A DNA stretch of 20,350 bases, from the IMG/VR virus record IMGVR_UViG_3300043395_001558, positions 1 to 20,350 of that record. One strand, 5' to 3'. The translations under genes and the position numbers were made by a program. A model generated the notes under the pieces. That model was not told where the DNA came from, did no database searches, and saw only the letters and a program-made list of their open reading frames with translations. Positions 1,375 through 20,258 of this stretch are shown here, piece after piece (positions within the stretch are counted from its first letter, which is position 1; each line of letters begins with the position of its first letter). The stretch comes from a virus.

Positions 1375-1938
1375 TTAGACGTTCGTGGTTTCCTTCACGG
1401 CGGCGAGGGCGACACACTGCGGGCAAGTGACCGAGTCGTCAGGATAGTGGCACTCGTGGTTCCGGAGAGCAGCCGCCAGCGCGTCCCGCTGGTCGCGGGC
1501 CTCGGCGAGATGGCGTTCGAGGTTCTCGGACACGTTTTTATGAACGTGATACGTTAGATTGCCACCGGTCGTGCGGGACATTTCCTGTCTCGCCGCATCC
1601 GTGATCGGCGTCGGGCGCTCGGCGGGCCGCATTGCAGAAACCGGGCATCCCGGGCCGTCGCTTTCGCCACGCGGGGTGGCGTGGCGTCGCTTCCACTCGC
1701 GTTCAATCGCCCCGCAGTCGCAAAGCAGCGCGGGTCCGGATAGCGGATGCCATCCCGGCACGCTGGAACACTTCGGGTCATGGTCGAGCGACGGCCCCAC
1801 CGAGTGCTGAATGTCCCACGCGTCGCCGAACGTCAAACCGGGCGCGTGCTCGGGCTCGTCCTGTCCGCAGTTTGTCCGCAATTCGCCGCAAATGTCCTCA
1901 CGGCCCTTCGATTCATTCTGTATGTCGTTGGTGTTCAT
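1375..1938 (-). CDS. hypothetical Cys-containing protein, 187 aa
   Basis: Start chosen at ATG 1938 (MNTNDIQNES); the longer frame to 2004 would read through the tRNA-like attachment core. The N-terminal third is polar, with a segment (ICGELRTNCGQDEPEH) encoded by the left repeat of the attachment region. A middle part has LLCDCGAIEREWKRR. The C-terminal half has a phage-style helix (SENLERHLAEARDQRDALAAALRNHE) followed by a Cys/His cluster (HECHYPDDSVTCPQC) that could bind zinc. The helix-plus-CxxC layout recalls small accessory phage proteins, but I cannot name a family. It is the first gene left of the putative attP, with a candidate promoter just upstream. Confidence 0.6.
   Translation of the reverse strand: MNTNDIQNESKGREDICGELRTNCGQDEPEHAPGLTFGDAWDIQHSVGPSLDHDPKCSSVPGWHPLSGPALLCDCGAIEREWKRRHATPRGESDGPGCPVSAMRPAERPTPITDAARQEMSRTTGGNLTYHVHKNVSENLERHLAEARDQRDALAAALRNHECHYPDDSVTCPQCVALAAVKETTNV
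1862..1890 (+). repeat. left arm-type repeats of putative attP
   Basis: On the plus strand TGTCCGCA occurs at 1862 and 1873 (11-base period), followed by a degenerate TCGCCGCA at 1883. The 22-base unit starting at 1862 differs at only two positions from the unit starting at 2094 on the other side of the tRNA-like core, in the same orientation. Tandem, helically phased short repeats on both sides of a core are typical of arm-type binding sites for tyrosine integrases. The repeat overlaps the 5' coding part of the gene starting at 1938. Confidence 0.5.
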
Positions 1939-1946
1939 GTGTTTGT

Positions 1947-1974
1947 AATCTATCAGAATTTCAATTTTCCGCAA
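1947..1974 (-). promoter_or_regulatory. candidate promoter for the left gene cluster
   Basis: On the minus strand a TTGCGG box (1969-1974) is followed after 16 bases by TAGATT (1947-1952). Transcription would start about 1940, almost at the ATG at 1938, giving a very short leader. The stretch is clearly more AT-rich than its surroundings. It is a pattern match only. Confidence 0.3.
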
Positions 1975-1992
1975 TCTCCCGCGAAGGTCGGC

Positions 1993-2044
1993 CGTCAGGC
2001 TCATAACCTGAAGGTCGTCAGTTCAAATCTGGCCCCCGCAACCA
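1993..2044 (+). other. attachment-site core: 3' half of initiator tRNA-Met (CAT)
   Basis: The plus strand holds a near-perfect 3' half of a bacterial initiator tRNA. It has an anticodon stem-loop TCAGG-CTCATAA-CCTGA (anticodon CAT), the variable segment AGGTC, a T arm GTCAG-TTCAAAT-CTGGC with all five pairs intact, the acceptor strand CCCCGCA, discriminator A and encoded CCA (2042-2044). A72/A73 are typical of initiator tRNA. The outermost of its three conserved anticodon-stem G:C pairs is A:U here. The bases left of 1993 do not form a D arm or a 5' acceptor strand, so this is not an intact tRNA gene. Such fragments are the usual identity block of phages that integrate into tRNA genes. Confidence 0.75.
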
Positions 2045-2058
2045 TTATTATCAAGGAC

Positions 2059-2493
2059 TTACGGCCCCGGATCATCTCCGGGGCCGTTTTCGTTGTCCGC
2101 AGATTGTCCGCAGTTAGAGCGGATGAAGTCGCGGGCGATCAGGTAGATGGCGCGGGCTTCCTCCACGGAACGGATGTGTGCGGTGTGATACTGCCGACCG
2201 GTCCGCTCTGAAAGGTGCCGGTAAATCGCCGCTCTCTTCACCGTGCCGGATTTCCATGCCGGGTCGATCAGAGCGTGGATGTGCTGGCGGGCGTTGCGCA
2301 CGTCGTCGTTCGGAATGCAGCCTAGAGGCCGGGTCCGGTCGGCGGTCTTGTGATGGCAGCCGACATGGTTTCCGCACGCGTCACACTTCCAAAACGGAAT
2401 GTCCGCAAGATCGGCGCGTCGAGGGTAAATCTCCGCGCCGTTGGTGAGCCTTGCGGTGACCTTAGCAGCGCATTCGCAGCAATAGAGGTTCAC
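2059..2493 (-). CDS. zinc-finger protein (DUF3268-like), 144 aa
   Basis: Start is GTG at 2493, overlapping the upstream stop as GTGA. The protein opens with a zinc ribbon: CCEC at residues 5-8, CDAC at 37-40 and further His/Cys (HVGCHHK) just after. The following helical region (NARQHIHALIDPAWKSG, then RAAIYRHLSERTGRQYHTAHI) resembles the small phage proteins annotated as zinc-finger-containing DUF3268, which carry a CC.C ribbon plus an R.YH-type segment. That assignment is from memory. The last 25 residues are polar and are encoded over the attP repeats and plus-strand terminator, so the C-terminus may be constrained by those sites. Probable nucleic-acid binding; role unknown. Confidence 0.65.
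   Translation of the reverse strand: MNLYCCECAAKVTARLTNGAEIYPRRADLADIPFWKCDACGNHVGCHHKTADRTRPLGCIPNDDVRNARQHIHALIDPAWKSGTVKRAAIYRHLSERTGRQYHTAHIRSVEEARAIYLIARDFIRSNCGQSADNENGPGDDPGP
2061..2090 (+). terminator. rho-independent terminator after the tRNA-like core
   Basis: An 11-bp perfect GC-rich stem (2061-2071 with 2077-2087), a five-base loop (TCATC) and a T run ending at 2090 lie 16 bases after the tRNA-like CCA on the plus strand. Only the plus direction has the T run. This is what would terminate a tRNA transcript restored on integration. The hairpin overlaps the last codons of the minus-strand gene ending at 2059. Confidence 0.75.
2093..2113 (+). repeat. right arm-type repeats of putative attP
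   Basis: TTGTCCGCAG occurs at 2093-2102 and again at 2104-2113, an 11-base period matching the left repeats at 1862-1880. The pair lies about 50 bases right of the tRNA-like core. It is also coding sequence for the C-terminus of the zinc-finger gene (IRSNCGQSADN). Matching arms on both sides favour an attP arrangement over a single prophage end. Confidence 0.5.
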
Positions 2494-3790: not shown

Positions 3791-3984
3791 GGCTTGAGCT
3801 TGACGGTGAAGATTTTCGGCCCGGAGTGCTGGATGTCGAACAACTGGAATTCGCGAGGCGGAAGCAAGGCCATCGAGCTCGTGGTTTCCAGCGTGATCGT
3901 GACCGACGCGCCCTTGACCGTTTCGACGGCTTGGCAGGCGTTGATGAGCGCCATCGTGCCGGATGAGTATTTCGGGCGGCTCAT
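3787..3984 (-). CDS. small phage protein, paralogue of the gene at 2490-2723 (65 aa)
   Basis: ATG at 3984 overlaps the ASCH-like gene stop (ATGA). The sequence MSRPKYSSGTMALINACQ leads into the shared core with KGASVTIT, PPREFQLFDIQH and SGPKIFTVKLKP. It lacks the Q/P/T tail of its paralogue. The conserved KGASV and FDIQHxGPK blocks suggest a defined small domain retained in both copies. Three genes separate the copies, so the event was either a dispersed duplication or a tandem one followed by insertions. Function not known. Confidence 0.75.
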   Translation of the reverse strand: MSRPKYSSGTMALINACQAVETVKGASVTITLETTSSMALLPPREFQLFDIQHSGPKIFTVKLKP

Positions 3985-8053: not shown

Positions 8054-8248
8054 TTACTTCCGGGTGTTCTTGACCTCGTAGCTCAAGACGTCCGCAAGTC
8101 TGTAGAGGACCCGCCCGCCGACCTTCACGAACGCCGGGCCGTTGCCTCTCGATCGCCACGTTGCGAGCGTGGCCTTCGTGACCTGGCCGAGCCACCGTTC
8201 GGCGAGCTGGTCGACGGTCAGGAACTCAGCCGAAGATGTCGCCGTCAT
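8054..8248 (-). CDS. small helix-turn-helix DNA-binding protein (excisionase/MerR-like), 64 aa
   Basis: Start chosen at ATG 8248 because AGGAAA lies seven bases upstream. A longer frame to 8293 would overlap the upstream gene further. The sequence FLTVDQLAERWLGQVTKATLATWRSRGNGPAFVKVGGRVLYRLADVLSY is the typical single-domain wing helix-turn-helix (HTH_17) of phage excisionases and prophage AlpA-like regulators. The GPAFVKVGGRVLY wing and final basic tail are intact. It could be a Xis/recombination directionality factor for the attP region or an early regulator; the sequence does not decide. It overlaps the annealing-protein gene by 23 bases. Confidence 0.8.
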   Translation of the reverse strand: MTATSSAEFLTVDQLAERWLGQVTKATLATWRSRGNGPAFVKVGGRVLYRLADVLSYEVKNTRK

Positions 8249-9236
8249 CGGAGTTTCCTGTTGGTGCTTCCTGAGCTTGTTCGGGCACGTCATCGGTCAC
8301 GACCTCAACCGGTGCTGGTTCCTGTGTTGGTGCGGGTGTGGCCTTGCGCGGGCGCGGGGCCGGTTTCGGAGCGGGCGTCTCCGCGGGCGGGCCCGTCGAG
8401 TCGCCGTCAAGGATGTTCTCGGCGGTCTCGCGCTCGGGCTTGGCTCCGCCGAACCATTCACCGGCCGCGGTGACGCCGTTCTTGATCGAGGTGTAGATCG
8501 AGCGGAGGTCGGCCAGTTCCTCGGGGAGCACGGCGTCGAGCGAGTGCCCGAGCCGGGCCTCGATCATCGCGGCCGTAACGCCGAGCTTCGAGAACGCGGC
8601 GGTCGTCTTCCTGATCCGGTCCTTGATCGGTTCCTCGTTCGATCCGGCGAGCGTCTTCCGGCACTCGTCCTCAGCGGCCCGCACGAGGTCGGACGGCAGG
8701 ACGCCGAAAATGCACGACCGGAGGCGGCGAGCTCCCTGGTTGGCCGTCAGCTCGTAGATGTCGCGCTCGTCGGTCAGCGCGTAGCCGCCCGTGCGGGTGT
8801 CACGCCAGTGCCGGACGGTGAAGTTCTGAGTGACCAGCGTGTTCGTCTGGAGGTCCCAGGCGAACGCCTGCATTTCCGAGACGCCGTCCTTCCGGCTGAG
8901 TTCGCGGATGTTGTATTCGATGTTCCCCCACACGCGGGCGAGTTCGCGGGCGAGGTGGATCGACGAGCCGGTGATCGTCTCGCGGCCACGCGGGAACGAC
9001 CAGAACGCCTCTTCGGCGAGGCCCGGACGCCGGCACGCTTGCATGGCCTCGTCGAACGCGATCGCCTCGTTGCGAGGGAACCGCTTCGCGATCACGAGCT
9101 TGCCCTGAGCCTCAGCGACGGCGCGGGCGGATTCGACTTCAATGGTTCCCGCGTTGACGTGCTCGGAGAGCCCTTGACGTTGGAACGGGTTGACGGGTCC
9201 GGCGTGCGTGCCGGTGACGATTTCGGTGCTTTTCAT
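8226..9236 (-). CDS. probable single-strand DNA annealing protein (RecT/Red-beta type), 336 aa
   Basis: ATG at 9236 behind CACCAACACAAACACCAACACC. The first 240 residues form one conserved-looking domain (ITGSSIHLARELARVWGNIE, LSRKDGVSEMQAFAWDL, VTQNFTVRHWRDTR, LTDERDIYELTANQGARRLR). The C-terminal part of that domain (VTAAMIEARLGHSLDAVLPEEL, LRSIYTSIKNG) resembles the end of several phage annealing proteins. The last 75 residues are Pro/Ala/Glu-rich and end DDGDIFG, an acidic tip like that of SSB-type tails. It sits immediately upstream of a helix-turn-helix gene and just downstream of an exonuclease gene, the usual exonuclease-annealing pair. Family assignment is partly by position. Confidence 0.55.
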   Translation of the reverse strand: MKSTEIVTGTHAGPVNPFQRQGLSEHVNAGTIEVESARAVAEAQGKLVIAKRFPRNEAIAFDEAMQACRRPGLAEEAFWSFPRGRETITGSSIHLARELARVWGNIEYNIRELSRKDGVSEMQAFAWDLQTNTLVTQNFTVRHWRDTRTGGYALTDERDIYELTANQGARRLRSCIFGVLPSDLVRAAEDECRKTLAGSNEEPIKDRIRKTTAAFSKLGVTAAMIEARLGHSLDAVLPEELADLRSIYTSIKNGVTAAGEWFGGAKPERETAENILDGDSTGPPAETPAPKPAPRPRKATPAPTQEPAPVEVVTDDVPEQAQEAPTGNSDDGDIFG

Positions 9237-9315
9237 GGTGTTGGTGTTTGTGTTGGTGCTTCCCCCCTCAGGAGCGGATTCGCTTATCAGAGGGAATGAG
9301 AATTGTTAATGTGAA

Positions 9316-10122
9316 TCACGCCCATTTGGGCAGGTCGAGGATCACCGGAGCGTCGGGCAAACCCGGCCACGTGTCGGACTCCCGGCAGCGTTTCAGGACG
9401 TCGAGGTCGGCCTCGTATTCCGACCGGCCACGGAGCACAGCCTTCGCGTCGAGGACGTAGAGGGCGCACAGGAACGGCCGGGTTTTCTCGACGGCCAGGA
9501 ACGCGAACCCGCGGGGTGGCTCGCCGAACGCGGCCTTGTAGCCGTCGCCGTAGAACGCTGCCTGCACGTGGTATCGGTAGTTCGCGATCGACCTCGCGAA
9601 CTCGTCCGGCCGGGCGTCCTTCGTGGTCTTCACGTCGAGGATCGTGCCGTTCGTCATGATCGCGTCGGGGCGGCACCGGCACTCGATCCCGGTGCGCTCG
9701 TCCTGCCAGAAGATCGACGTCTCGACCTCGCGGATCATCCCGAGGGCCTTGCTCGTGGCGGGGTGCGTCCAGACGGCGTCGCGGGTGGCTCGGAGGTCGT
9801 CGAGTTCTTCGGCCGTCACGATCTCGCGGCCCTTCGCCTCGATCTGGAACGCGGCCCAGTCGGCTTTCCCTTGGGTCGTCCGGCGATCCACCACCGGAGC
9901 GATGATCGTGCGTTCTTCCAAGGTGTCGGGCTCGAGAATCGCGGTGTGAACCAGCGTTCCCCAGCGCATCGCCTCAGTCGGCTCGGTCGGGTTGTCCCGC
10001 GTCCACTTGTAGAGGGCGGGGGCTTTGCGGATCAGGTCGAGGCCTGATTTCGAGACGGACGGCAACGAGTGATATTCTTCGTTGCTCATCCCGCGAATTA
10101 TTTGCGGTTGGTTGGTGCTCAT
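9316..10122 (-). CDS. PD-(D/E)XK exonuclease, RecE/Cas4-like, 268 aa
   Basis: Start set at ATG 10122 (MSTNQPQIIRGMSNEEYH); an in-frame TTG at 10137 is possible. The N-terminus SNEEYHSLPSVSKSGLDLI is typical of the PDDEXK-like phage exonuclease VIII family (DUF3799). Catalytic residues are visible: E136 (EVETSIFW), D153 (CRPDA), then D163 and K165 (ILDVKTTKD), with Q187 and Y191 (YHVQAAFY) as the QxxxY motif. Length is normal for the family. It would resect double-stranded ends to feed the annealing protein encoded next, for recombination and replication restart. It is separated from the tail gene D by 63 bases. Confidence 0.9.
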   Translation of the reverse strand: MSTNQPQIIRGMSNEEYHSLPSVSKSGLDLIRKAPALYKWTRDNPTEPTEAMRWGTLVHTAILEPDTLEERTIIAPVVDRRTTQGKADWAAFQIEAKGREIVTAEELDDLRATRDAVWTHPATSKALGMIREVETSIFWQDERTGIECRCRPDAIMTNGTILDVKTTKDARPDEFARSIANYRYHVQAAFYGDGYKAAFGEPPRGFAFLAVEKTRPFLCALYVLDAKAVLRGRSEYEADLDVLKRCRESDTWPGLPDAPVILDLPKWA

Positions 10123-10185
10123 AGCGGCACCAGTCAAAGCAATCCCCCGCCGGATGCAAGGTCAAAGTTTGTGGAAGTTTGCACG

Positions 10186-10460: not shown

Positions 10461-11204
10461 TCAGTCACCGAATTGAGGGTTGGAGACGTCGACGTCGTAT
10501 TCGTCGGCCTCGCCGGTCTGGTAGTTGTGGACCCGGGCCTTGACCTTCGTCACGCCCTGAGACTTCCCGCCGATCTTCACCCTGTAGTTCGTGACGTCGT
10601 CCGGGGTCAGTGTGAGTTCCAACGCCTGCCCGCTGGTCGTCTGCCCGCCCTGCTCGCTGGCCAGCACGAGCCGCCCGTCGGCGGGCTTCAGCACGCCACC
10701 GTATCGGCGAGCGATGCGGATCAGGAGGTTCGCATCCGATTCGCCGACCTGGGCGATGTGCGGGATCGTGATGTCCTTCAGCGTCTTGTCCACGACCGGC
10801 TGCAAGCCGCACTCGCCCGCGATGGTGGCCACGATGTCGCCGACGGTCTTGCCCTCCCACGAGCGCGATTTCCGGCTCGTGAAGGACGCGGAGCCGCCAC
10901 CGTTGCCGTCCACGAACGGGGTTGACGATCCGGTCACGGTGATCTGGTCGGGCGGGCCGTCGATGGTGACGTCATCCACCACGAACGCGCCCATGCGCTG
11001 GTTGGCGCCGTTGTAGCCGATGGCGACCTCGATCTTCGCCCCGGACTTCGGGAGCGCCAGAGTGCCCGCCGTGTCTTCGAGGACGAGCGTCATCCCGTCG
11101 CTGGTCTCGTCCACCGTGTCGACGATGTCGAGCGATACCAGTCGCGACGTGATCGAGCCGGTGATGTCGCTGCCGTTGGCCGTGATGGTGAACGTCGGTT
11201 TCAT
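10461..11204 (-). CDS. D: tail hub protein D, N-terminal part (247 aa)
   Basis: ATG at 11204 overlaps the X gene stop (ATGA). The sequence has the D/VgrG-like pattern: PTFTITANGSDITGSITSRL, LVSLDIVDTVDETSDGMTLVLED, GAKIEVAIGYNGANQRMGAF, then VVDDVTIDGPPDQITVTGSS. Later parts (SWEGKTVGDIVATIAGECG, IAQVGESDANLLIRIARRYG) match the hub domain with its ADANLL-type signature. The frame ends at VSNPQFGD, where homologues run on. P2 gpD is the baseplate hub at the end of the tail tube. The gene is otherwise intact with no internal disruptions before the stop. Confidence 0.85.
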   Translation of the reverse strand: MKPTFTITANGSDITGSITSRLVSLDIVDTVDETSDGMTLVLEDTAGTLALPKSGAKIEVAIGYNGANQRMGAFVVDDVTIDGPPDQITVTGSSTPFVDGNGGGSASFTSRKSRSWEGKTVGDIVATIAGECGLQPVVDKTLKDITIPHIAQVGESDANLLIRIARRYGGVLKPADGRLVLASEQGGQTTSGQALELTLTPDDVTNYRVKIGGKSQGVTKVKARVHNYQTGEADEYDVDVSNPQFGD

Positions 11205-11413
11205 CAGTCCCAGAGTCGGGTGAGCGATTCGGCAGGCGGCTCGGGGGCGCGGTCGGGAAGCGTGATCGTCAGCCCGGCGGGAAGCACCGGCCCGTGGTCG
11301 GCGAGGCCCCGGTTCGCTTCGAGCACGGTCTCGACGATCCGGCGCGAGGTGTCGCCGTAGTAGCGAAACACCACGTCGTCGAGGATGTCGTTCTGTCTGG
11401 TGAGGTAGAGCAT
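11204..11413 (-). CDS. X: tail protein X, LysM-like (69 aa)
   Basis: ATG at 11413 shares ATGA with the U stop. MLYLTRQNDILDDVVFRYYG starts a LysM-like fold, followed by VETVLEANRGLADHGPVLPAG and LTITLPDRAP, typical of P2 gpX. Length matches the family. It is expected at the baseplate or tail tip. Its position between U and D is common in P2-like relatives, though in P2 itself X lies earlier. A longer frame to 11572 is a shadow across the U gene. Confidence 0.85.
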   Translation of the reverse strand: MLYLTRQNDILDDVVFRYYGDTSRRIVETVLEANRGLADHGPVLPAGLTITLPDRAPEPPAESLTRLWD

Positions 11414-11856
11414 CAGCCGAAAAGAGAGATGATTTTCGAGGCCTTGGTGATCATGCCGAGCACGCCGGCACAGTCGCCGTATTGTTTCAGCCCGACGTTG
11501 AACGTGATCATCCGCGGGTAGCCGTCGCGCCAGTGCTTCGTGCCGGTGTCCTCGACGGACTCGATCACCCACAGGCCATGGACTCGGCCGGTGCCGTCGA
11601 TGAGCGTCATCGGCATGCCGAGGCCCGCCAGCGCCCGCATGCGTGCCATCTGCTCGGCTCCGCCGGTGAACCCCGGGATGATGCGCCCCGAGAGCGTGAT
11701 CGTCTCGTTCTGCGGCCCGGTGTATTGCAGCGCGGGCAGCTCGCCGACACGGTCAACGGGTTTCCAGTCCCACCGTGACGAGCGGGTCAGCTCGTCGTAG
11801 GCCGCGCCCGAGAGCGAGAACCGGAAGGGGCCGAGAGCGATCATTGTTCCGAACAT
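11413..11856 (-). CDS. U: tail protein U (147 aa)
   Basis: ATG at 11856; the internal Met5 (IALGPFRFSL) at 11844 would match P2 gpU better. Distinct U features are LGPFRFSLSGAAYDEL, WDWKPVDRVGELPALQYTGP, ITLSGRIIPGF and GTGRVHGLWVIESVEDT. The family is a tail completion protein controlling the tube end. It lies directly after the tape measure and before X and D, as in P2-like genomes. No unusual features. Confidence 0.85.
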   Translation of the reverse strand: MFGTMIALGPFRFSLSGAAYDELTRSSRWDWKPVDRVGELPALQYTGPQNETITLSGRIIPGFTGGAEQMARMRALAGLGMPMTLIDGTGRVHGLWVIESVEDTGTKHWRDGYPRMITFNVGLKQYGDCAGVLGMITKASKIISLFG

Positions 11857-11861
11857 GGCGA

Positions 11862-13631
11862 TCAGGCAGGGACGAGTGCGCCGTCAGCGTCGAACAGCGG
11901 CTTGCGTTGGAATTCGGTGCGAATCTGGTCGGCAATCCTCTTGCCGTCCGCACCGGGGGCGGTGACGTTGATGTTCCAGGTGTTGTTGGCCGTTCCGCGT
12001 GCAGGCCCGGGCGCTGCCATCTTCTCGGGCGCGACCATTGGCGCGACCTGCGAGGTTGAGCCGTCGTCGCCCGTGAAGAACCCGCTGATCGAGTTCGCGA
12101 GGTCCTTCATTTTCTGCCAGAGCGCGGTGAACTTCTGCCCGATCCAATCGAACTTGGAACCGATCCACGAGAAGAACGCCTCGAACGACGCCTTGATGCT
12201 GGCGATCATGTCGTCGACGATGGTGATCGCGGCCTCGGTGTTCCGACCGAGCCACTGGCCAACGTCGGCGCCGATCTCCTTGATCCACCGCCACGCGGCG
12301 TCGGCTTCCTTGCCGAGCGCCTTGATCGAGAACAACAGGCCGTCGAGCGGGTTGCCGTCGCCGACCAGCGAGAAGAACGTCGTCCACACGGCAATGACCA
12401 GGCCGATCGGCCCGAGCAGCCTCCACGTTGCGCCGGTCAGCGCGATCACGCCTTTCGTCAGGTTCGCGATGGCGAGGATCGTGGGGGCGAAGTTGAGAGC
12501 GACAAGCGCAATCCCGAGGTTTTCCCACCCGCCGACCAGGTCCTTGATCTTGACGATGACGGACGCGACCTTCGTGGCAAATGCGCCGAGCTTGTCGATG
12601 ATCTCCGGGAGCTTGTCGATGAACCGCCCGAGCGCGGGCACGACGCGAGTCTCGATGACGTTCGCGAAGTTCGCCGCCCATTCCTTGATCTGCGGGCCGT
12701 TGGTTCGGATGAACGACGTGAACTTCTCAGCGAGCCGGGTCAGCGTCGGCACGAACTGGATCGCGATCGTGTTGCGGAGGCCGATCATCGTGATCCCGAA
12801 CATGTCGAGAGCCGATGCGGCGTCTCCCGCGGCCTTCGCAGCCTCGTCGGTCAGGACGGCTCCGGTTTCCTCGCCAGCCTTGCGGAACTCGTCGAGGCCG
12901 TCCTTGCCTTTCGACAGGATGCCCGCGAGCTGATACCCGGACTTGCCGAACAGCTTCATCGCGAGCGCGGCTTTGTCCGCACCCTTGTAGTCCTTGAACG
13001 CCTCCGCCACGGCTTCGAGTTGCTGATCGAGCTTGAGCTTCCGGAGCCTCGCCGCGTTGAACCCGAGCTTGCCGAGCGCCTCGTCGGTGGACTCTCCGCC
13101 CTCCATGACGGCCTTCGAGAACTTCGCGATGCTCGCGGTCATCTTCGCGCCGCCGACGCCCACGGTCGCGGCTGCGAACTGCCACGTCTGCAGCGCCTGG
13201 GTGGACATTCCGAGAGCTTCGGCAGAGTCGCCGATGTCGTCGGCCCAGTCCACGAACCCGCGGGTCGTTGAATACACCGCCGCGCCGAGCGCCGTGACGG
13301 CCGCGGTAGCGATGCCGGCACCGGCAGCGAGTCTGCCCGCGTCCTTCGCGAACGTCGAGCCGATCGACTTGAACCCTCCGCCGATGGAGTAGTTCGCCGC
13401 GGCCTTGAGCCGCTTCAGTTCCCTCTCGGCCTCGGACGTCTTGCGCTTCAGCTCGTCGAGCTTCCCGGCGTATTCGCCGACGCCTTTCGACGCGTCCTTG
13501 TATGCCGAGCGGAGGCCCTTGAGGACCGCTTCCTGCTCCTTGATCTTCGACTTCAGCCCGCCGAAAACACGGTTGACCGACGAGCTTAGGGCGGCTCCGA
13601 TCTTGAGGTTTGCGGCGAAGTTCTTGGTCAT
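11862..13631 (-). CDS. T: tail tape measure protein (589 aa)
   Basis: ATG at 13631 overlaps the E' stop as ATGA. The N-terminus (about 1-95) is coiled coil (SKIKEQEAVLKGLRSAYKDA, LDELKRKTSEAERELKRLKA). Next comes a hydrophobic segment (LAAGAGIATAAVTALGAAVY, about 103-122), the tape measure core (ALGMSTQALQTWQFAAATVG), a second hydrophobic part (VALNFAPTILAIANLTKGV) and a C-terminal region with amphipathic helices (WIGSKFDWIGQKFTALWQKM). Length sets tail length; at roughly 0.15 nm per residue this predicts a shorter tail than P2, whose gpT is about 815 residues. That is inference from the family rule. Confidence 0.9.
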   Translation of the reverse strand: MTKNFAANLKIGAALSSSVNRVFGGLKSKIKEQEAVLKGLRSAYKDASKGVGEYAGKLDELKRKTSEAERELKRLKAAANYSIGGGFKSIGSTFAKDAGRLAAGAGIATAAVTALGAAVYSTTRGFVDWADDIGDSAEALGMSTQALQTWQFAAATVGVGGAKMTASIAKFSKAVMEGGESTDEALGKLGFNAARLRKLKLDQQLEAVAEAFKDYKGADKAALAMKLFGKSGYQLAGILSKGKDGLDEFRKAGEETGAVLTDEAAKAAGDAASALDMFGITMIGLRNTIAIQFVPTLTRLAEKFTSFIRTNGPQIKEWAANFANVIETRVVPALGRFIDKLPEIIDKLGAFATKVASVIVKIKDLVGGWENLGIALVALNFAPTILAIANLTKGVIALTGATWRLLGPIGLVIAVWTTFFSLVGDGNPLDGLLFSIKALGKEADAAWRWIKEIGADVGQWLGRNTEAAITIVDDMIASIKASFEAFFSWIGSKFDWIGQKFTALWQKMKDLANSISGFFTGDDGSTSQVAPMVAPEKMAAPGPARGTANNTWNINVTAPGADGKRIADQIRTEFQRKPLFDADGALVPA

Positions 13632-14001
13632 TTAGGAGCGGGTATCAGGCCGACCCACTCCGCGAACTCGTCGATTGGCAGGCCGTAGATTTCAGAGAGT
13701 GACCATCCGGTGTAATTGGCGAGCACCAGCACGCCACGCTTTACGTCCGTGGGGTCGTATGTTCGAAAAAACCCGCACCCTCCAAGGCCTCGCTGATCTC
13801 GCGGAAGTCGGCCGCGTCGATCTCTTCGATTGCCGACACGGGAAGCTCGGCGGAGATGGCGGCGATGTTAATCGCGGTCTTGAACTCGTCGCCCTTGTGC
13901 GTGCCTCGGGCGATCTCGCCGGTCTTGAGCCGACGGAACGTCAGCTTGTCGATCGTGCGGCCTTCGAACTGGATGGGATAGCGGAGCTTGACTTCAATCA
14001 T
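13628..14001 (-). CDS. E: tail assembly chaperone fusion E+E' (made by -1 frameshift, 124 aa)
   Basis: Reading from ATG 14001, a -1 slip at 13765-13771 (T TTT TTC) leads into an open frame that continues RTYDPTDVKRGVLVLANYTG and ends GWSLSEIYGLPIDEFAEWVG then LIPAPK, with TGA at 13630-13628. The extension matches P2 GpE' (a short helix with W, LS and a WxxL-type end), and its stop overlaps the tape measure start. P2 itself makes E and E+E' by a -1 shift at a T6G site. The frame has no start codon of its own in a suitable place. Both products are expected to chaperone the tape measure during tail assembly. Confidence 0.85.
13741..14001 (-). CDS. E: tail assembly chaperone E (unshifted product, 86 aa)
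   Basis: ATG at 14001 preceded by CACCAACCGCATCCCC. Protein: MIEVKLRYPIQFEGRTIDKL, TFRRLKTGEIARGTHKGDE, then INIAAISAELPVSAIEEIDA and DFREISEALEGAGFFEHTTP. This is the P2-like E family (phage tail assembly chaperone, Phage_TAC_7-like). It ends 23 bases after the slippery site, at TAA. The family uses a ratio of this short form to the shifted form; both lie directly before the tape measure gene as expected. Confidence 0.85.
   Translation of the reverse strand: MIEVKLRYPIQFEGRTIDKLTFRRLKTGEIARGTHKGDEFKTAINIAAISAELPVSAIEEIDAADFREISEALEGAGFFEHTTPRT
13765..13771 (-). promoter_or_regulatory. -1 ribosomal frameshift slippery heptamer
   Basis: In the E frame the codons are GGT TTT TTC, so the heptamer T TTT TTC fits the X XXY YYZ rule exactly. 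After slipping, reading continues CGA ACA TAC into the E' frame. P2 uses the same site with G as last base. No downstream structure was computed. Confidence 0.85.
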
Positions 14002-14031
14002 GGGGATGCGGTTGGTGCGGGTTGATGAGGG

Positions 14032-14535
14032 TTACAGGCCGACGGCCTTGCGCTGAGCGGCCAGGCGGTCGGTGCCACCGATGACGCACTTCATGTTGCG
14101 GACGTCGATGTCGTGGATCGTCTCGCCGTCGATCGTGTAGGAGTAGGACACGAGCGGGATGCGATAGCCGCGGGTCGCCTTCGCGCCCGGCGTGGCGGCG
14201 TCCGGCGTGATGCCGTGGACCTTGCCGAGCATCTTGACGACGCACGCCTTCACGGTGCCGTCGGCGCTTTCCAGCGCACCGCGGAACGTGAGCGGGATGT
14301 AACCCGGCGAGCGGAACAGCTTGTCGATGTGGTTTTCCCACTTCGAGAGCGTGATCGTAGCTTCGAGCTTGTCCATGCCCATGTCGATCTCGACCGGCGC
14401 GTCCATGCCCCCGGCGCGGTAGTCCTCGCCGGTGACGTTGAGCGTGGGGAGCTGGACCTCGTCGGCGTTGCCCGCGTATCCGCGGCCGTCGACGTAGACG
14501 TTGAAGTTCTTCAGGATTTGTGCGGCGGCACTCAT
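14032..14535 (-). CDS. FII: major tail tube protein (167 aa)
   Basis: ATG at 14535. MSAAAQILKNFNVYVDGRGY, NADEVQLPTLNVTGEDYRAG, GMDAPVEIDMGMDKLEATIT and SKWENHIDKLFRSPGYIPLT follow the P2 FII tube protein pattern, as does the end GETIHDIDVRNMKCVIGGTD. Length is near P2 FII (172). It polymerises as the inner tube inside the sheath encoded upstream. It is placed as in P2 between sheath and E. Nothing unusual. Confidence 0.92.
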   Translation of the reverse strand: MSAAAQILKNFNVYVDGRGYAGNADEVQLPTLNVTGEDYRAGGMDAPVEIDMGMDKLEATITLSKWENHIDKLFRSPGYIPLTFRGALESADGTVKACVVKMLGKVHGITPDAATPGAKATRGYRIPLVSYSYTIDGETIHDIDVRNMKCVIGGTDRLAAQRKAVGL

Positions 14536-14565
14536 GATGGCGGAGTGTTGTTAGGGTGGGGCTTG

Positions 14566-16008
14566 TTAGTCGATCAGCTCGGAGAGGTAATCGTTGGTGA
14601 GGATCGACCGGAAGGTGACGGTCTGCGCCGGGTAGGGCGGCGTGAACTCGAAGTTGAAGTAGACCTTGCCGAGCGCAATCTGATCGGGGCTGTTGAGCGC
14701 CGGGTCCGGCCAGCACTTGCCGCCGATGATCGCCCCGAGGTTGGTGAGCGTCGCGAGGTAGGCGTTCACGCCGTCGCTGACGTCTTCGAGGTAGGTGCGC
14801 GTGATGCTGCGATCGACCGCCCACAGGTGGTTGTAGAGGATTGAGTCGTTGATGATGTCGGCGGTGCGACGGACGCTCAGGAACTGCCACTTCGGATCGA
14901 TGCTGCCGGTGAGGTTGCCCCACACGCGGAAACCACCCTGGCGGATGAAGGTCGTGACCTTGCCCTCGTTCAGGATGTTGGCGAGGCAGGTCGAGTCGCC
15001 GAGCTGGAAGTCCACCGGCTTGTCGATGCTGGTCAGGCCGAACACTTCGACGTTGGACGGGCTCCACCAGAATCCGCGCTCGTTGTCGGACTTCGCCAGC
15101 ACGCCGGCCACGTAGGGCGCGGGGTCTTCGCCGCCGTTGATGAACGGCCAGATCGCGAACGTGCGCTCGTTGCCGTTGTCGGTCACCCATCCGGTGGCCT
15201 CGGTGGAAGTCGCGATGCTTTCGGAGTCGAGGCCGACGATCGCAACGGCGCGGCAGGATTCGGCCACTGACTTGATGTGTCCGACGACGCCCGTGTCGTG
15301 CGCGTATTCCGCGACAATGATCCGCGGCACATAGCCGAGGTCGGCCTGAGCGCGTTTCAGAGCGTAAATGCCGGTCGCGCTGGTCGCGTCGTGGGAGTCA
15401 GCGCCAGGGTCATCGACGCGCACCACGACGCACACCGCGCCGGCCTGCTTGTAAATCGCTTCGAGGGCCTTCCCGAGGTAGGTGTCGGCGCCGAGCGTGG
15501 CGTCGATGTTCCGCGGAGCCGTCACGAGGACCGGCGTGTCCAGCGGGAACGTCGCGTCGATGCCACCGGCGAGGCTGGTCGCGGCGTGCGCGGCATAGAC
15601 AGACGCGCCAGTCGAGGACGGAGCGAGCGAGGCGGTGACGAGCAAGGCAGCGGCAGCGGACGCGTTGACGGCCGCGAGGACCTGCGAGGCGGTCGAAGTC
15701 GCGGCGGCTGATCCGTCGGTGGCCAGGCTGATCGTAATGACCTTGCCGGACACGGAGACCGACAGGCTGGCGTTGTTGGTGCCAGGATTGACGGCCGCGA
15801 TCTGGATCGCGTTGCCGGACGCGCCCTGCTCGGCCTTCGCCGTGAATTTCAGAGCCGCGTTGCCGTTGCCGATGGTGACGCTGGCCGCGGTTTCGTCGTT
15901 GTTGCCAGTTCCCACGAGCCCGATGACCGAGCTGCGGACGGTGCGGATGGGGCGGATTCCATCGTCAACTTCGAGGACTTGCACGCCGTGAAGGAAGGTG
16001 TCGGACAT
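14566..16008 (-). CDS. FI: tail sheath protein with an inserted domain (480 aa)
   Basis: ATG at 16008. MSDTFLHGVQVLEVDDGIRP, IRTVRSSVIGLVGT is the P2 FI N-terminus. Residues about 37-149 are an insertion rich in Ala, Ser, Thr and Gly (VTIGNGNAALKFTAKAEQGA, GKVITISLATDGSAAATSTA, AAATSLAGGI). After it, DATFPLDTPVLVTAPRNIDA restores the sheath. The C-terminal half has the conserved WWSPSNVEVFGLTSID, VTTFIRQGGFRVWGN and the core ending FEFTPPYPAQTVTF. P2 FI is about 396 residues. The inserted segment resembles an Ig-like or bead domain found in other tail proteins, likely outward facing. Upstream leader shares a 23-base repeat with W. Confidence 0.92.
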   Translation of the reverse strand: MSDTFLHGVQVLEVDDGIRPIRTVRSSVIGLVGTGNNDETAASVTIGNGNAALKFTAKAEQGASGNAIQIAAVNPGTNNASLSVSVSGKVITISLATDGSAAATSTASQVLAAVNASAAAALLVTASLAPSSTGASVYAAHAATSLAGGIDATFPLDTPVLVTAPRNIDATLGADTYLGKALEAIYKQAGAVCVVVRVDDPGADSHDATSATGIYALKRAQADLGYVPRIIVAEYAHDTGVVGHIKSVAESCRAVAIVGLDSESIATSTEATGWVTDNGNERTFAIWPFINGGEDPAPYVAGVLAKSDNERGFWWSPSNVEVFGLTSIDKPVDFQLGDSTCLANILNEGKVTTFIRQGGFRVWGNLTGSIDPKWQFLSVRRTADIINDSILYNHLWAVDRSITRTYLEDVSDGVNAYLATLTNLGAIIGGKCWPDPALNSPDQIALGKVYFNFEFTPPYPAQTVTFRSILTNDYLSELID

Positions 16009-16033
16009 GGTCGGACGTTAGGTGTGGGGTTAT

Positions 16034-16056
16034 TGAGGGTCGAGTGGGGTTTTGTC
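16034..16056. repeat. 23-base direct repeat, copy 1 (leader of the sheath gene)
   Basis: The plus strand sequence starting TGAGGGTCGAG and ending GGGGTTTTGTC is identical to 20285-20307. In the transcribed (minus) sense it lies between the 77-aa gene stop and the sheath start, and both copies are followed by a CCTAMCGTCCGACSATG-type start region. It may be a duplicated leader or an activator/processing site. Confidence 0.7.
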
Positions 16057-16288
16057 AGCGTGATCGCCAGTGGCAGAGTTCGTGGCCGCATCCCTTTGAG
16101 AGCCGGTCGACGTCCTCCTGTAGCTTCTCGATAATGCGATCCTGCACGCCGAGGCGTTCGGTCAGCGTCTTCCAGATGATCCCGGCGAGCGTGGCGATCA
16201 CGCCTCCTAGGGTTCCGATGATCGCGATGACCCAGCCGACAGGCACGACAAGTTCGCGGGCGGTTTCGAGGTGAACGGCAGCGTCCAT
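16055..16288 (-). CDS. small single-span membrane protein (77 aa), possible lysis or tail accessory
   Basis: ATG at 16288, five bases after the upstream stop. Short acidic N-terminus (MDAAVHLETARE), one hydrophobic span (LVVPVGWVIAIIGTLGGVIA, about 13-38) and then a charged helix that may coil (ERLGVQDRIIEKLQEDVDRL). The end KGCGHELCHWRSR has two Cys and two His. The layout differs from XhlA, in which the coil precedes the span. It lies where P2 has G/Z, ahead of the sheath. A larger frame reading to 16507 is a shadow across the 52-aa gene. Confidence 0.6.
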   Translation of the reverse strand: MDAAVHLETARELVVPVGWVIAIIGTLGGVIATLAGIIWKTLTERLGVQDRIIEKLQEDVDRLSKGCGHELCHWRSR

Positions 16289-16293
16289 TGGTG

Positions 16294-16452
16294 TCACTTG
16301 CTCGGGGTTGCGTCTTTGGCGAGGTAGCCGAGGGCGGCAAGCGTGGCGGGCAGAATCCACGTCTTCCAGTCGGTGAGTTGGGCGCCGCCTTGAACGGTGC
16401 TTTGGATGGCGGCGGCGGCTGCGGCGAGCAGTCCGATGATGGTGGTTTTCAT
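16294..16452 (-). CDS. tiny hydrophobic protein (52 aa), possible holin-like
   Basis: ATG at 16452 (after CTAACGACC), five bases past the upstream gene stop; TGA at 16296-16294. MKTTIIGLLAAAAAAIQSTV is a signal-like hydrophobic N-terminus; residues 30-45 (KTWILPATLAALGYLA) form a second hydrophobic segment, ending KDATPSK. Similar small proteins with the WILPA..AALGYLAKD ending occur in phage tail or lysis regions, but I cannot name one. Tight spacing to its neighbours supports it as coding. Confidence 0.6.
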   Translation of the reverse strand: MKTTIIGLLAAAAAAIQSTVQGGAQLTDWKTWILPATLAALGYLAKDATPSK

Positions 16453-16457
16453 GGTCG

Positions 16458-16880
16458 TTAGGGGAGAAGGATGTCCGGGATCGTGGCCTTGATGCCTTCA
16501 AGGTCATCGGGAAGCGGATGATCGGTCACGTCGCGGAGGGCTTGCTTTTCGGCGGCGATGGCGTTGCGGCGTTTCGCGTCGCCGCGCTCGACGGCCTTGA
16601 TGACTTCGAGGTCGAGAGCTTCCAGCTTTGACGCGCGAATCCGGCGCCACACGTTGCGCTGGACCTCTTTCGCCTTCTCGACATTGACCTTCGCGCCGGT
16701 CGGGCCGTCGAACTCCCACGCGTCGCGGAAGTAGCGGTCGGGCAGCGTCGCTGAATCCACGAACGCGTGAGGCACGCCCTCGGGCACGTCGGTTTTCGCG
16801 GCCTCCTCCACGGGCACGTCCGGGGCCGGATAGACAACAGCGAGGCGGTCGCCTTCTTGATATGTGATGACAGTTGGCAT
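16458..16880 (-). CDS. probable tail fibre assembly protein (140 aa)
   Basis: ATG at 16880, just after the fibre gene stop. The pattern ITYQEGDRLAVVYPAPDVPVEE, VPEGVPHAFVDSATLPDR, FRDAWEFDGPTGAKVNVEKA, RRIRASKLEALDLEVIKAVERGD and KQALRDVTDHPLPDDLEGIK is typical of small phage proteins encoded beside tail fibres (AWE..., vDl.KAk...R..R, LRDVt). These are thought to assist fibre assembly; function is by position and pattern. It has no membrane segment. Followed by the 52-aa gene after five bases. Confidence 0.6.
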   Translation of the reverse strand: MPTVITYQEGDRLAVVYPAPDVPVEEAAKTDVPEGVPHAFVDSATLPDRYFRDAWEFDGPTGAKVNVEKAKEVQRNVWRRIRASKLEALDLEVIKAVERGDAKRRNAIAAEKQALRDVTDHPLPDDLEGIKATIPDILLP

Positions 16881-16893
16881 GGCGATTGATCGG

Positions 16894-18159
16894 TTAGAAG
16901 AACGCGACGACGCAAAGTTCCGACGAGTCGAACAGCGTGTCGGATTCGAGGTTGCAGATGGTGAGGGATGCGGTGGTCTTGCCTTGGCTGAGGCGAGCGG
17001 AGATGACGGACGCGGCGTCGATGTCGTTGATTTGGCGGCTCGTTCCGACCCAGCAGTAACCGGACCCGCCGAAGGTTCCGCTCACCCAGTTGATCCGATA
17101 GAGGCCGGTTCCGAGGTCGGTGACGGACGTCACGTTGAAGCTGCGCGTGATCGACAGCGTGCCGGTTGCGTCGAAAATGACCCACGCTCGCGCTGAGCCT
17201 GGATACAGCCGGTTCGTCGCCGGGGTGACGGCGCGGGTGTCGTCTTCGCCGTTGTCAACCTCGCTTTGGGTGGCCAGCTCGATCACACCACGCCGTGATG
17301 CGGTCGCCGTGCAATCGTTCAGCGTTGACGGGGTAACGGCGCGTGTTGCATCGGTTCCGGTCTGGACCTCGGAAGCCGTCGCCAGTTCGATCAGGCCAGC
17401 CCGGGTTGTGGTCGATGTGACTGACGCGAGGCTCGACGGCGTGATGGCGCGGGTTGCGTCGGACCCGGCTTGAGCCTCAGCGTCGGTTGCCAGCTCAATC
17501 AGACCCGTTCTGGTTTCGGTGGCCGTGCGCTGCGCCAACCCGGCTGGCGTGACAGCCCGCGTCGTGTCGGTGCCGGTGTTGACCTCGGTGTTCGTCGCGA
17601 GCTCGATCACGCCCTTGCGGGTTTCCGTCGCGGTGACGTCCTGAAGTTTCTTCGGGGTGATGATCCGCTCGTCATCCGTGCCGGCCTGCGCCTCAGCGGT
17701 GGTCGCGAGTTCGGCTACGCCCTTCACGGTTTCGGTGGCCTGCGGATAGTCGAACGTGGCATCGCCAACGGTGACCGACCCGGCGGGAAGCCCGGTGATG
17801 ACGAGGTCCGTCGCGATCAGCGCGACAGTGCCCGCACCCTTCGTGATGATCGGATCAGCCTGCGAGTAGATCGCGAGCAGGACGTTGCCTGAGGTGTAGA
17901 GGCCGATTTCCTTGACCGTGTAAACGTCGGTCGTCGAGTCGGTGGCCGTCACGTGGATCGTGTCGTCAGCGACGGCACCGCCACCGATGGCGCTGATTTT
18001 CTTGATCTCGGTGTTGAGCGCGGTCGCGGCGGCGGTCGGCGTCCACGACGCGGAACCAACGGCCACGCGGTCGATGACGACCGGGTTCGTTCCGGTGTTG
18101 TTCGCGTTGATGATCGCGTTCTTTCCGGCAGTCGTGAGGATGAATGAGAGGGCGGGCAT
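16894..18159 (-). CDS. tail fibre protein with five 36-residue repeats (421 aa)
   Basis: Start set at ATG 18159 (MPALSFILTTAGKNAIINAN); a TTG in frame at 18174 is the alternative. Residues 1-140 are the tail-collar type N-terminus of P2 H-like fibres (AVGSASWTPT, VYTVKEIGLYTSGNVLLAIY). Residues 141-320 are five units of 36 residues of the form ATETRxGxIELATxxEVxxG-TDxTRAVTPxxL, the phage fibre_2 repeat. Residues 321-421 are a beta-rich tip (GTGLYRINWVSGTFGGSGYC, SLTICNLESDTLFDSSELCV), expected to contact the host receptor. It attaches to the baseplate via gpI. The tip is short compared with P2 H. Confidence 0.9.
   Translation of the reverse strand: MPALSFILTTAGKNAIINANNTGTNPVVIDRVAVGSASWTPTAAATALNTEIKKISAIGGGAVADDTIHVTATDSTTDVYTVKEIGLYTSGNVLLAIYSQADPIITKGAGTVALIATDLVITGLPAGSVTVGDATFDYPQATETVKGVAELATTAEAQAGTDDERIITPKKLQDVTATETRKGVIELATNTEVNTGTDTTRAVTPAGLAQRTATETRTGLIELATDAEAQAGSDATRAITPSSLASVTSTTTRAGLIELATASEVQTGTDATRAVTPSTLNDCTATASRRGVIELATQSEVDNGEDDTRAVTPATNRLYPGSARAWVIFDATGTLSITRSFNVTSVTDLGTGLYRINWVSGTFGGSGYCWVGTSRQINDIDAASVISARLSQGKTTASLTICNLESDTLFDSSELCVVAFF
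17200..17739 (-). repeat. five tandem 108-bp coding repeats in the fibre gene
   Basis: Units start at residues 141, 177, 213, 249 and 285, all exactly 36 residues apart. Core words GVIELAT, TG(T/S)DxTRA(V/I)TP recur. DNA copies are diverged, mostly at third positions, so they are old. Length change by slippage or recombination is possible. Confidence 0.85.
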
Positions 18160-18170
18160 AGGAGTTGAGG

Positions 18171-19028
18171 TCAATAGGTTGCGCCTCCATCGAGACGGAC
18201 AAAAACGGCGGGTCGAAACAGAGCAACGACGTTGATCGTGCCTTCGGTCGCGACGCCATAGACGATGTCGTAGTGGGACCTGAGCGGCTTCGTGCGGTCG
18301 ATGGCGGCCGCCATCGCGTTTTGCATTTCGAGAGAACTGTCACCGGACACGAGATTGATCGTGAACGTGTGTGGTGTGCCGGTCGGTGATTTCTGCCACC
18401 ACTCGACGATCGCGCTGCTTGCACCGAGCGCGGACAAGGCACCCTTCACGGCACCGACGGTGCCCTTCTTCCGGTGCGTCTCGATGGATGTTCTGACGAC
18501 CGACCGCTTGATTGACTCGGACCAATTCGAATCCCACACGTCCACCGAGAACGCCCACGCCAACCACGGCAGGATGTCGAGCGGGCATGTGTCAGGATTG
18601 ATCAGCGGACGGATCGGCACGTCGAAGACTTCGACGTCTTGTACGGCGGGAGGGTTAAGCTCGGCCGTCAGCGTGAAATCACCCGACCCGTTGACGCTGG
18701 TCCACGATGTGACATCGAGCGGCGATTCCGTGTCCTCGGATGACTCGAAATACACGGTTCCCATGTCCGACTCGAACGACCAGTTAGAGCCATCCCAGAT
18801 GAGCAGGCGATTTCCGAGTTGGTTGGCGAAATGAATCTTGCCGTTTATCTCGCCGAAGCCTCGATAGATGGTTTCGTTCGCGCCGGCCGGGCTCGTCGTC
18901 CCGCTGATGATGATATGACCGGTTGTCGCCTCGACGGTTGCGTCGAGCACGGAGCCTCCAACGCGTGCCGTTGTTTTCACGACGTCGCGCTCTTGCTTTG
19001 TTGCGTTCGGTGGAAGAAGGTCATTCAT
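18171..19028 (-). CDS. I: baseplate/tail protein I with an inserted domain (285 aa)
   Basis: Start ATG 19028 overlaps the J stop by eight bases (ATGAATGA); an upstream TTG at 19049 is less likely because P2-like I proteins begin MNDLLPPNAT. Residues 1-24 are the normal start. Residues 25-131 are an insertion (IIISGTTSPAGANETIYRGF, GNRLLIWDGSNWSFESDMG, TVYFESSEDTESPLDVTSWT) resembling domains often repeated in phage tail fibres. Residues 132-285 return to family sequence (VPIRPLINPDTCPLDILPWL, AWAFSVDVWDSNWSESIKRS, THRKKGTVGAVKGAL). P2 I is about 176 residues. I joins the fibre to the baseplate. Confidence 0.88.
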   Translation of the reverse strand: MNDLLPPNATKQERDVVKTTARVGGSVLDATVEATTGHIIISGTTSPAGANETIYRGFGEINGKIHFANQLGNRLLIWDGSNWSFESDMGTVYFESSEDTESPLDVTSWTSVNGSGDFTLTAELNPPAVQDVEVFDVPIRPLINPDTCPLDILPWLAWAFSVDVWDSNWSESIKRSVVRTSIETHRKKGTVGAVKGALSALGASSAIVEWWQKSPTGTPHTFTINLVSGDSSLEMQNAMAAAIDRTKPLRSHYDIVYGVATEGTINVVALFRPAVFVRLDGGATY

Positions 19029-19923
19029 TGACAATGCCGACGTGGTCAACGGTGTAGGATGCGCAGAACGACACCTCGTCTGCCTCGACCTCGATGTCGA
19101 GGTTCGGGTTCAATAAGTGGACGCGCTGCACGCCCGGCTGGTGGAGAGCGGCGTAGATGCCCGAAACGGTGACGTCCTTCCCGATGCGCCGCACGCTTTC
19201 GAGGTAGGCTTCGAGCGCGTCGCGGGCGGCTTGCGTGACCACCGCCGGATCAGGGCCGGGGTAGGTGTAAAGCTCGGCGGTCAGGGTGAAGTTGACCACC
19301 GTCACCGGCTGCACGGTGACGTTGTCGGTGAGCGGCCGGACGTCCTCGGCATTGAGAGCGACCTCCACGATGTCGAGCAGTCCGCTCGACGGGACGCCGT
19401 CGGCGACCGATCGACACATGACGGTCACGACCACGTTGCCAGGGCTCGGGCTGCTCGCCGCGGCGTCGAGGACATCCCCATCAGCGGCGAGCGCGTGGAA
19501 GATGTAAGCGCCCTCAGGTCCCGCCGTGCTCAACCCCTCAAGCGCGAGCTGGATGCGTCGGCGAAGGTCCGTGTCGGACTCCATGACGGCCGGCACGGGA
19601 GGAACGGCTTCCTCGTCGGCCTCGGTGATGGTCAGCCTCGTCACGCCGAACAACGCGCCGATCTGCTCAAGGTCGGCCCCGGTCGCGTAGGCGAGCATCG
19701 TGGCGCGTGCGGCGTCGTTGACCCGCTGGCGGATCAGGAGTTCGCGATACGCACACACTTCGAGAATCTTGTAGGCCGGATCAGACTCGACCAGCGCCGT
19801 GAACGCCGGATCGCGGGCCTGTAGGTCGGCCAGCATCGCGGCGAGGATCGCCTCGAAGTCGAGGGTCTCCACCACGCTCGGCGGTGGAAGGGTGGAAAGG
19901 TCAATGGTCGTGAACGCACTCAT
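19021..19923 (-). CDS. J: baseplate protein J (300 aa)
   Basis: ATG at 19923 overlaps the W stop by four bases. MSAFTTIDLSTLPPPSVVET, LDFEAILAAMLADLQARDPA, FTALVESDPAYKILEVCAYR, ELLIRQRVNDAARATMLAYA, TGADLEQIGALFGVTRL is the clear P2 gpJ/baseplate-J start. The later RRIQLALEGLSTAGPEGAYI and GNVVVTVMCRSVADGVPSS, then PVTVVNFTLTAELYTYPG are typical of the family's wedge part. Length equals P2 J (302). It forms the baseplate wedge with W and I. No anomalies. Confidence 0.95.
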   Translation of the reverse strand: MSAFTTIDLSTLPPPSVVETLDFEAILAAMLADLQARDPAFTALVESDPAYKILEVCAYRELLIRQRVNDAARATMLAYATGADLEQIGALFGVTRLTITEADEEAVPPVPAVMESDTDLRRRIQLALEGLSTAGPEGAYIFHALAADGDVLDAAASSPSPGNVVVTVMCRSVADGVPSSGLLDIVEVALNAEDVRPLTDNVTVQPVTVVNFTLTAELYTYPGPDPAVVTQAARDALEAYLESVRRIGKDVTVSGIYAALHQPGVQRVHLLNPNLDIEVEADEVSFCASYTVDHVGIVNE

Positions 19924-20258
19924 GCGATTTGGACGCCGTCGAGGAACACCGGCTCGCCGGTCGGCAGGTAGATGGCTTCGAGGTCAATGGAGATGGACGC
20001 TTCCGACGTGCTGCGGGCCTGCACGCGCTGGACCTTGATGCGAGGTTCCCACCGGAGCAGGGCTTCGGCCGTCGCGGCGAACAGCTCGATGATCGTTGCG
20101 TCGTTCAGCGGGTTGTCGACCAGGTCAAAGAGTCGGCTCCCATACTCGCGACGCATGACGCGCGAACCCAGCGGCGTCGTCAGGATGTCCCGGATCGACT
20201 GCCGCAGGTGATCCAACCCCGAGAGCGGTTTCCCGGTTGTTGCGTCGGTGCCTCGCAT
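19920..20258 (-). CDS. W: baseplate wedge protein W, gp25-like (112 aa)
   Basis: ATG at 20258. The family signature TTPLGSRVMRREYGSRLFDL is at residues 27-46, followed by VDNPLNDATIIELFAATAEA, LLRWEPRIKVQRVQ and ISIDLEAIYLPTGEPV. Length fits P2 W (115) and T4 gp25-like lysozyme-fold proteins, without lysozyme activity. The first visible gene of the tail operon. P2 has the spike gene V upstream; the window ends before it could appear, and only a leader and terminator are seen. Confidence 0.95.
   Translation of the reverse strand: MRGTDATTGKPLSGLDHLRQSIRDILTTPLGSRVMRREYGSRLFDLVDNPLNDATIIELFAATAEALLRWEPRIKVQRVQARSTSEASISIDLEAIYLPTGEPVFLDGVQIA

Follow-up and report, generated by a model that had tools for sequence, protein, structure and literature searches.

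Gene content and putative attachment-site features of the window

The window analysed here is the whole of IMG/VR record IMGVR_UViG_3300043395_001558, which is complete at 20,350 bases and classed as linear, so that it is likely to be a fragment. It is a 20.35-kb linear piece of a contractile-tailed temperate phage of the Caudoviricetes: genes for a tail sheath and for a baseplate are both present, and the sheath protein is 40-46% identical, over its full length, to the sheaths of the best-matching isolated phages. The following features were located.

1375..1938, minus strand: small ORF of 187 codons left of the putative attP, likely start ATG 1936-1938; homologous to an ORF of relative L021
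1862..1869, plus strand: left arm unit 1, TGTCCGCA (repeat search)
1873..1880, plus strand: left arm unit 2, TGTCCGCA, 11 bases past unit 1
1893..1900, plus strand: left arm unit 3, TGTCCTCA, one mismatch (comparison with relatives)
1993..2044, plus strand: core of the putative attP, an initiator tRNA-Met 3' half of 52 bases identical to host genes
1995..2011, plus strand: inverted repeat of the anticodon stem, TCAGG-CTCATAA-CCTGA, around the 7-base anticodon loop (sequence)
2059..2493, minus strand: gene for a DUF3268 zinc-finger protein (Pfam/PHROG), its 3' end overlapping the right arm and the terminator
2061..2087, plus strand: intrinsic terminator between core and right arm, with an 11-pair stem and a T tail
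2094..2101, plus strand: right arm unit 1, TGTCCGCA (repeat search)
2105..2112, plus strand: right arm unit 2, TGTCCGCA, 11 bases past right unit 1
8054..8293, minus strand: 79-aa helix-turn-helix protein, candidate excision factor (weak match to an excisionase/regulator PHROG)
10461..20258, minus strand: contractile-tail gene block of tail protein, tape measure, tail sheath, tail fibre and baseplate (protein matches)

The initial annotation had recognised here a 52-base 3' half of an initiator tRNA-Met gene including CCA, and this is confirmed at 1993-2044, where the core takes in everything between the 5' strand of the anticodon stem and the CCA, both included. ARAGORN found no tRNA in the window alone. 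When the 5' half of the Methylocystis rosea gene was joined by script to the window from 1993 onward, a complete 77-nt tRNA-Met(CAT) resulted, whose CAT anticodon and C1 x A72 mismatch mark it as an initiator. The match to the tRNA gene covers everything between the anticodon loop and the 3' end, and so restores the tRNA. Three consecutive G-C pairs at 29-31:39-41 of the anticodon stem are not present; the pairs are A-U/G-C/G-C, and the host genes are alike in this. Such a stem is a natural variant among bacterial initiators, and it is therefore the C1 x A72 mismatch that decides initiator identity. A literature search for the variant in the three G-C pairs found no open paper. The inverted repeat at 1995..2011 presumably supplies the core-type Int sites, with crossover within 2000-2006.

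The repeats at 1862-1883 and 2094-2115 are 91% identical and share an 11-base period. TGTCCGCAR occurs in five copies on the plus strand (0.41 expected in shuffles, maximum 2), and the 8-mer TGTCCGCA describes the arm unit better, having six sites with at most one mismatch in the flanks where 0.15 are expected. The phased repeats that had been described on both sides of the half tRNA, with their 11-base period, are therefore present, as an array of 3+2 units rather than 2+2, the copy at 1893 having been missed. Since chance alone yields about 0.7 terminators per region in such a scan, support for this one comes from its place and from its recurrence in relatives, where a hairpin of different sequence sits at the same place.

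No PHROG or Pfam family was matched by the left-flank ORFs, and the left 1.4 kb of the window, including ORFs 2-493 and 881-1426, has no detectable relatives; these two ORFs were tried and abandoned as a route to a longer version of the phage. The helix-turn-helix protein at 8054..8293 matches phrog_66 (E 1.1e-7) and scores 25.9 bits with HTH_17, just under the cut-off. Elsewhere in the window, 3808-3942 and 2541-2678 are 71% identical DNA encoding similar small proteins, an internal duplication, and the tail fibre gene has internal repeats at 17217-17744 with an offset of about 216 bp. An Exonuclease VIII-like gene (phrog_412) lies beside that of a conserved phage protein (phrog_3657) at 8226-10137, and the two are perhaps a recombination pair.

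Related phage contigs and their integrases

Viral relatives came from an exact core search (seven contigs), an arm-pair search (one more) and an integrase search (L021). The window is collinear with G002 (38,778 bp) and G007 (38,800 bp) at 65-80% DNA identity. G007 bears a 248-bp terminal repeat at 99.6% and is most simply read as a closed circle of about 38.55-38.6 kb; compared with such a genome of about 38.55 kb, the window would amount to roughly half. G003, a more distantly related phage, combines the same core with different repeats; the ends of its contig overlap at the start of int, so that it also looks circular.

The 52-base core with its arm units is an architecture common to the window, G002, G007, G008 and L021. 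In these five attPs, GTCCGCA units lie at about -130/-119/-99 before the core and about +50/+61 after it, some exact copies being absent in G002 and L021; the unit is exact at the offset of left unit 3 in G002, G007 and G008. The four relatives keep the core and the arm offsets while their remaining DNA has diverged to 65-80% identity. Their spacer between core and right arm has kept its length (49-50) and its hairpin and changed its sequence. The cores of G008 and L021 are variants that have other T-stems with pairing intact, and both variants occur in alphaproteobacterial genomes.

Both flanks of the site are phage-like, as had been proposed. The right flank carries the tail sheath, tape measure and baseplate genes. 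On the left, the ORF at 1375..1938 is homologous to an L021 ORF located between attP and int, and homologues of this first left ORF adjoin the attP in three related phages, so that the left flank is phage DNA too and not host chromosome.

No integrase was found in the 20.35-kb window by Pfam profile. All four relatives (G002, G007, G008 and L021) have a minus-strand tyrosine integrase gene to the left of attP; the proteins show 74-77% identity to that of G002, and PF00589 (Phage_integrase) and PF13356 (Arm-DNA-bind_3) were confirmed in the three relatives scanned. The integrase that the initial annotation proposed to look for is thus absent from the fragment and adjoins the site in its relatives. 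Of the two observations named there as refuting an attP, a left flank of ordinary chromosome and a phage lacking an integrase, neither was made. The window ends 1.4 kb beyond the ORF at 1375..1938 without reaching an integrase gene, and that of the window phage presumably lies beyond the left end of the contig. In G007 the first arm unit abuts the integrase start codon, so arm-bound integrase could damp its own expression there, as has been described for IntS (PMC11963761).

Initiator tRNA genes and integrated elements in Alphaproteobacteria

The exact core is present in at least 119 genome contigs, mostly of Alphaproteobacteria. A profile search found an integrase match at E<=1e-75 in 27 of 385 alphaproteobacterial genomes; a degenerate-pattern search of the genome contigs had returned no integrase relatives, its patterns having sat in the poorly shared N-terminus. 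Among the 15 loci fetched, a truncated initiator tRNA adjoins the integrase in 10 (one of them degenerate), and for most of the integrated relatives the match to the tRNA has its start exactly at the anticodon loop, CTCATAACC. The search of host genomes suggested at the outset therefore yielded the exact core and attL/attR sites of elements with related integrases. A prophage of the window phage itself was not found in the genome contigs, and tail sheaths in alphaproteobacterial genomes are at best about 52% identical to that of the window. Verrucomicrobiota, in which the exact core also occurs, were considered as hosts and set aside, as none of 288 genomes gave the integrase in a search made there without a positive control.

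Two genomes contain stacks of elements at one initiator gene. G283 has its complete gene at 817219 and, further along, three half genes, at 841382, 879996 and 915410 (G283:C1 817219-915410; L192, L199, L202, L205); the complete gene of G400 lies at 2243277, and two halves come after it, at 2280369 and 2343955 (G400:C1 2243277-2343955; L201, L204, L207). In both, a complete tRNA comes first, then an element, then a half tRNA; two or three elements occupy one initiator tRNA gene, and every element has an arm unit of its own. The sequence downstream of the half at 2343955 is the same as that after another complete copy in G400, at 2099563. Single elements carry one arm unit on both left and right: TTGGCAAACGATTGGCAAAC in G283, and TGGGCACA and TGGAATCA in G400.

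Other occupied initiator genes were seen. Asticcacaulis benevestitus DSM 16100 (G015; loci L132, L151, L160, L164-L171) has ten copies of the initiator 3' half, complete and truncated, which suggests many insertions; its truncated copies are without the exact 11-bp repeat pair. Half initiator genes in Acidocella, Asticcacaulis and a MAG (L039, L056, L074, L080, L132) have other upstream repeats, such as TTTGGCACA in L056 and L132, in place of 11-bp pairs, and apparently belong to another integrase group with the same target.

Of 43 half genes, 21 have on their left a 7-mer repeated at a spacing of exactly 11 bp, about 0.6 being expected, and the next-commonest spacing was 12 (in 10). To the right of 87 complete initiator genes there is an 11-bp pair in 18, any other spacing occurring at most three times, and these pairs cluster near +48 and +70. 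The loci are non-independent, with several from some of the genomes and the window family included, and the control is a simple mononucleotide shuffle, so these numbers describe the spacing rather than prove it. In the proposed geometry, a pair of direct 8-mers with an 11-bp spacing stands on either side of the core, in a short register (-138/-127, +49/+60), to which the window belongs, or a long one (-150/-139, +69/+80). It is a little less than an even chance, in our judgement, that initiator-targeting integrases of Alphaproteobacteria share this fixed geometry while the 8-mer varies from element to element as a lock-and-key code. The element-specific 8-mer would then be read by the arm-binding domain of the integrase, and under such a code several prophages could share a single essential tRNA gene as a stack, without mutual excision.

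Origin of the site and comparison with known systems

We regard it as very probable that a temperate phage with a contractile tail, most likely one that infects an alphaproteobacterium, has its attP at this site; the host assignment rests on the tRNA and on the integrase relatives. The five phage contigs and the integrated elements in host genomes support the placing of an attP in an initiator tRNA 3' half, the presence of arms to its left and right, and the role of the plus-strand terminator in serving the restored tRNA. Integration follows the classic tRNA-restoring route, the crossover falling close to the anticodon loop; we infer the arm binding and the crossover position from the sequence. 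A tyrosine integrase with an N-terminal arm-binding and a C-terminal catalytic domain would connect the arm units (1862/1873/1893 and 2094/2105) with weak core sites in the anticodon-stem inverted repeat. Strand exchange with the identical stretch of the host's initiator tRNA gene would take place in the anticodon loop or close to it. The phage-borne 3' half would replace that of the host, giving a whole tRNA at attL followed by the phage's own terminator, and the displaced host 3' half would mark attR, beside int.

The same arrangement might be produced by the junction of two prophages in tandem at one initiator tRNA gene, with flanks from different elements. Such stacks do exist, with three halves in series after the complete gene of G283 and two after that of G400, but a half tRNA within a stack has unlike arms, as at L204, where TGGGCACA is on the left and TGGAATCA on the right. 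In the window TGTCCGCA is found on both sides of the half tRNA, at the offsets of the apparently circular relative G007, and we consider a tandem junction improbable. Less probable still, in our estimation, is that one lone prophage was integrated here and that the site is its attL or attR, with host chromosome on one side. IMG/VR does hold many trimmed proviruses, and L002, L005, L006 and L007 contain complete tRNAs; the tRNA of the window, however, is incomplete and has arms on both sides, and its left ORF has homologues next to the attP in related phages. A captured or decayed fragment of a phage tRNA gene that plays no part in integration would agree with the frequency of tRNA genes in phages and with the absence of an integrase from the fragment. 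It is equally implausible given a core that tracks host variants with its T-stem pairing intact, a conserved arm geometry, and integrases that adjoin the site in relatives.

Taken as attP, the site can be compared across five uncultured phages, which gives a clear view of an attachment site that restores a tRNA. In Alphaproteobacteria the initiator tRNA gene, indispensable to the cell, emerges as a target at which insertions recur and can stack. Because the spacing is fixed while the arm unit changes, the arm specificity of these integrases is open to direct test, and a simple marker for such elements is the 11-bp repeat pair that lies downstream of an initiator tRNA gene.

Integration that restores a tRNA near the anticodon loop is textbook knowledge. 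The initiator tRNA had been singled out as a notable target, but its use proves to be frequent rather than exceptional: many alphaproteobacterial initiator genes carry elements, and there are published precedents. The attP of Prochlorococcus siphovirus P-SS2, which we recovered by similarity search with the initiator 3' half, is the 3' part of a tRNA-Met gene beside int (PMC2784084). P-SS2 differs from the window phage in that its 53-bp match includes only 36 bp of tRNA; it is an unrelated cyanophage with a relic island in its host. Many Arthrobacter phage records also match an initiator 3' half, and in the FB-cluster phage Kumotta attB lies in tRNA-Met-CAT and a 51-bp common core rebuilds the tRNA (PMC10865867); these actinobacterial phages are unrelated to ours. 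phiKX1, Y6 and Sinorhizobium phages were rejected as parallels since they carry whole tRNA genes and not halves.

Among alphaproteobacterial systems, the IntS attP of ICEMlSymR7A, with five arm-type motifs in 283 bp (PMC11963761), resembles the 3+2 array of the window. IntM of the Mesorhizobium tripartite ICEs targets a met-tRNA gene (PMC9973854), and the likeness holds at the level of met-tRNA, which may not be the initiator. The Mesorhizobium ICEs are unlike the window phage in being conjugative and in their arm consensus, TGKTGGTATC, and IntS targets phe-tRNA. The integrated elements described here share with the window a related integrase, a half tRNA and paired 11-bp arms, and the element at 2243277-2280369 of G400 matches its offsets (-138/-127 on the left, +49/+60 on the right); they differ in their arm units and, for the most part, in a longer spacing (-150/-139, +69/+80). 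What is new is an arm geometry common to elements whose unit sequence differs, and a phage family with an initiator tRNA attP that uses a mechanism of a known kind.
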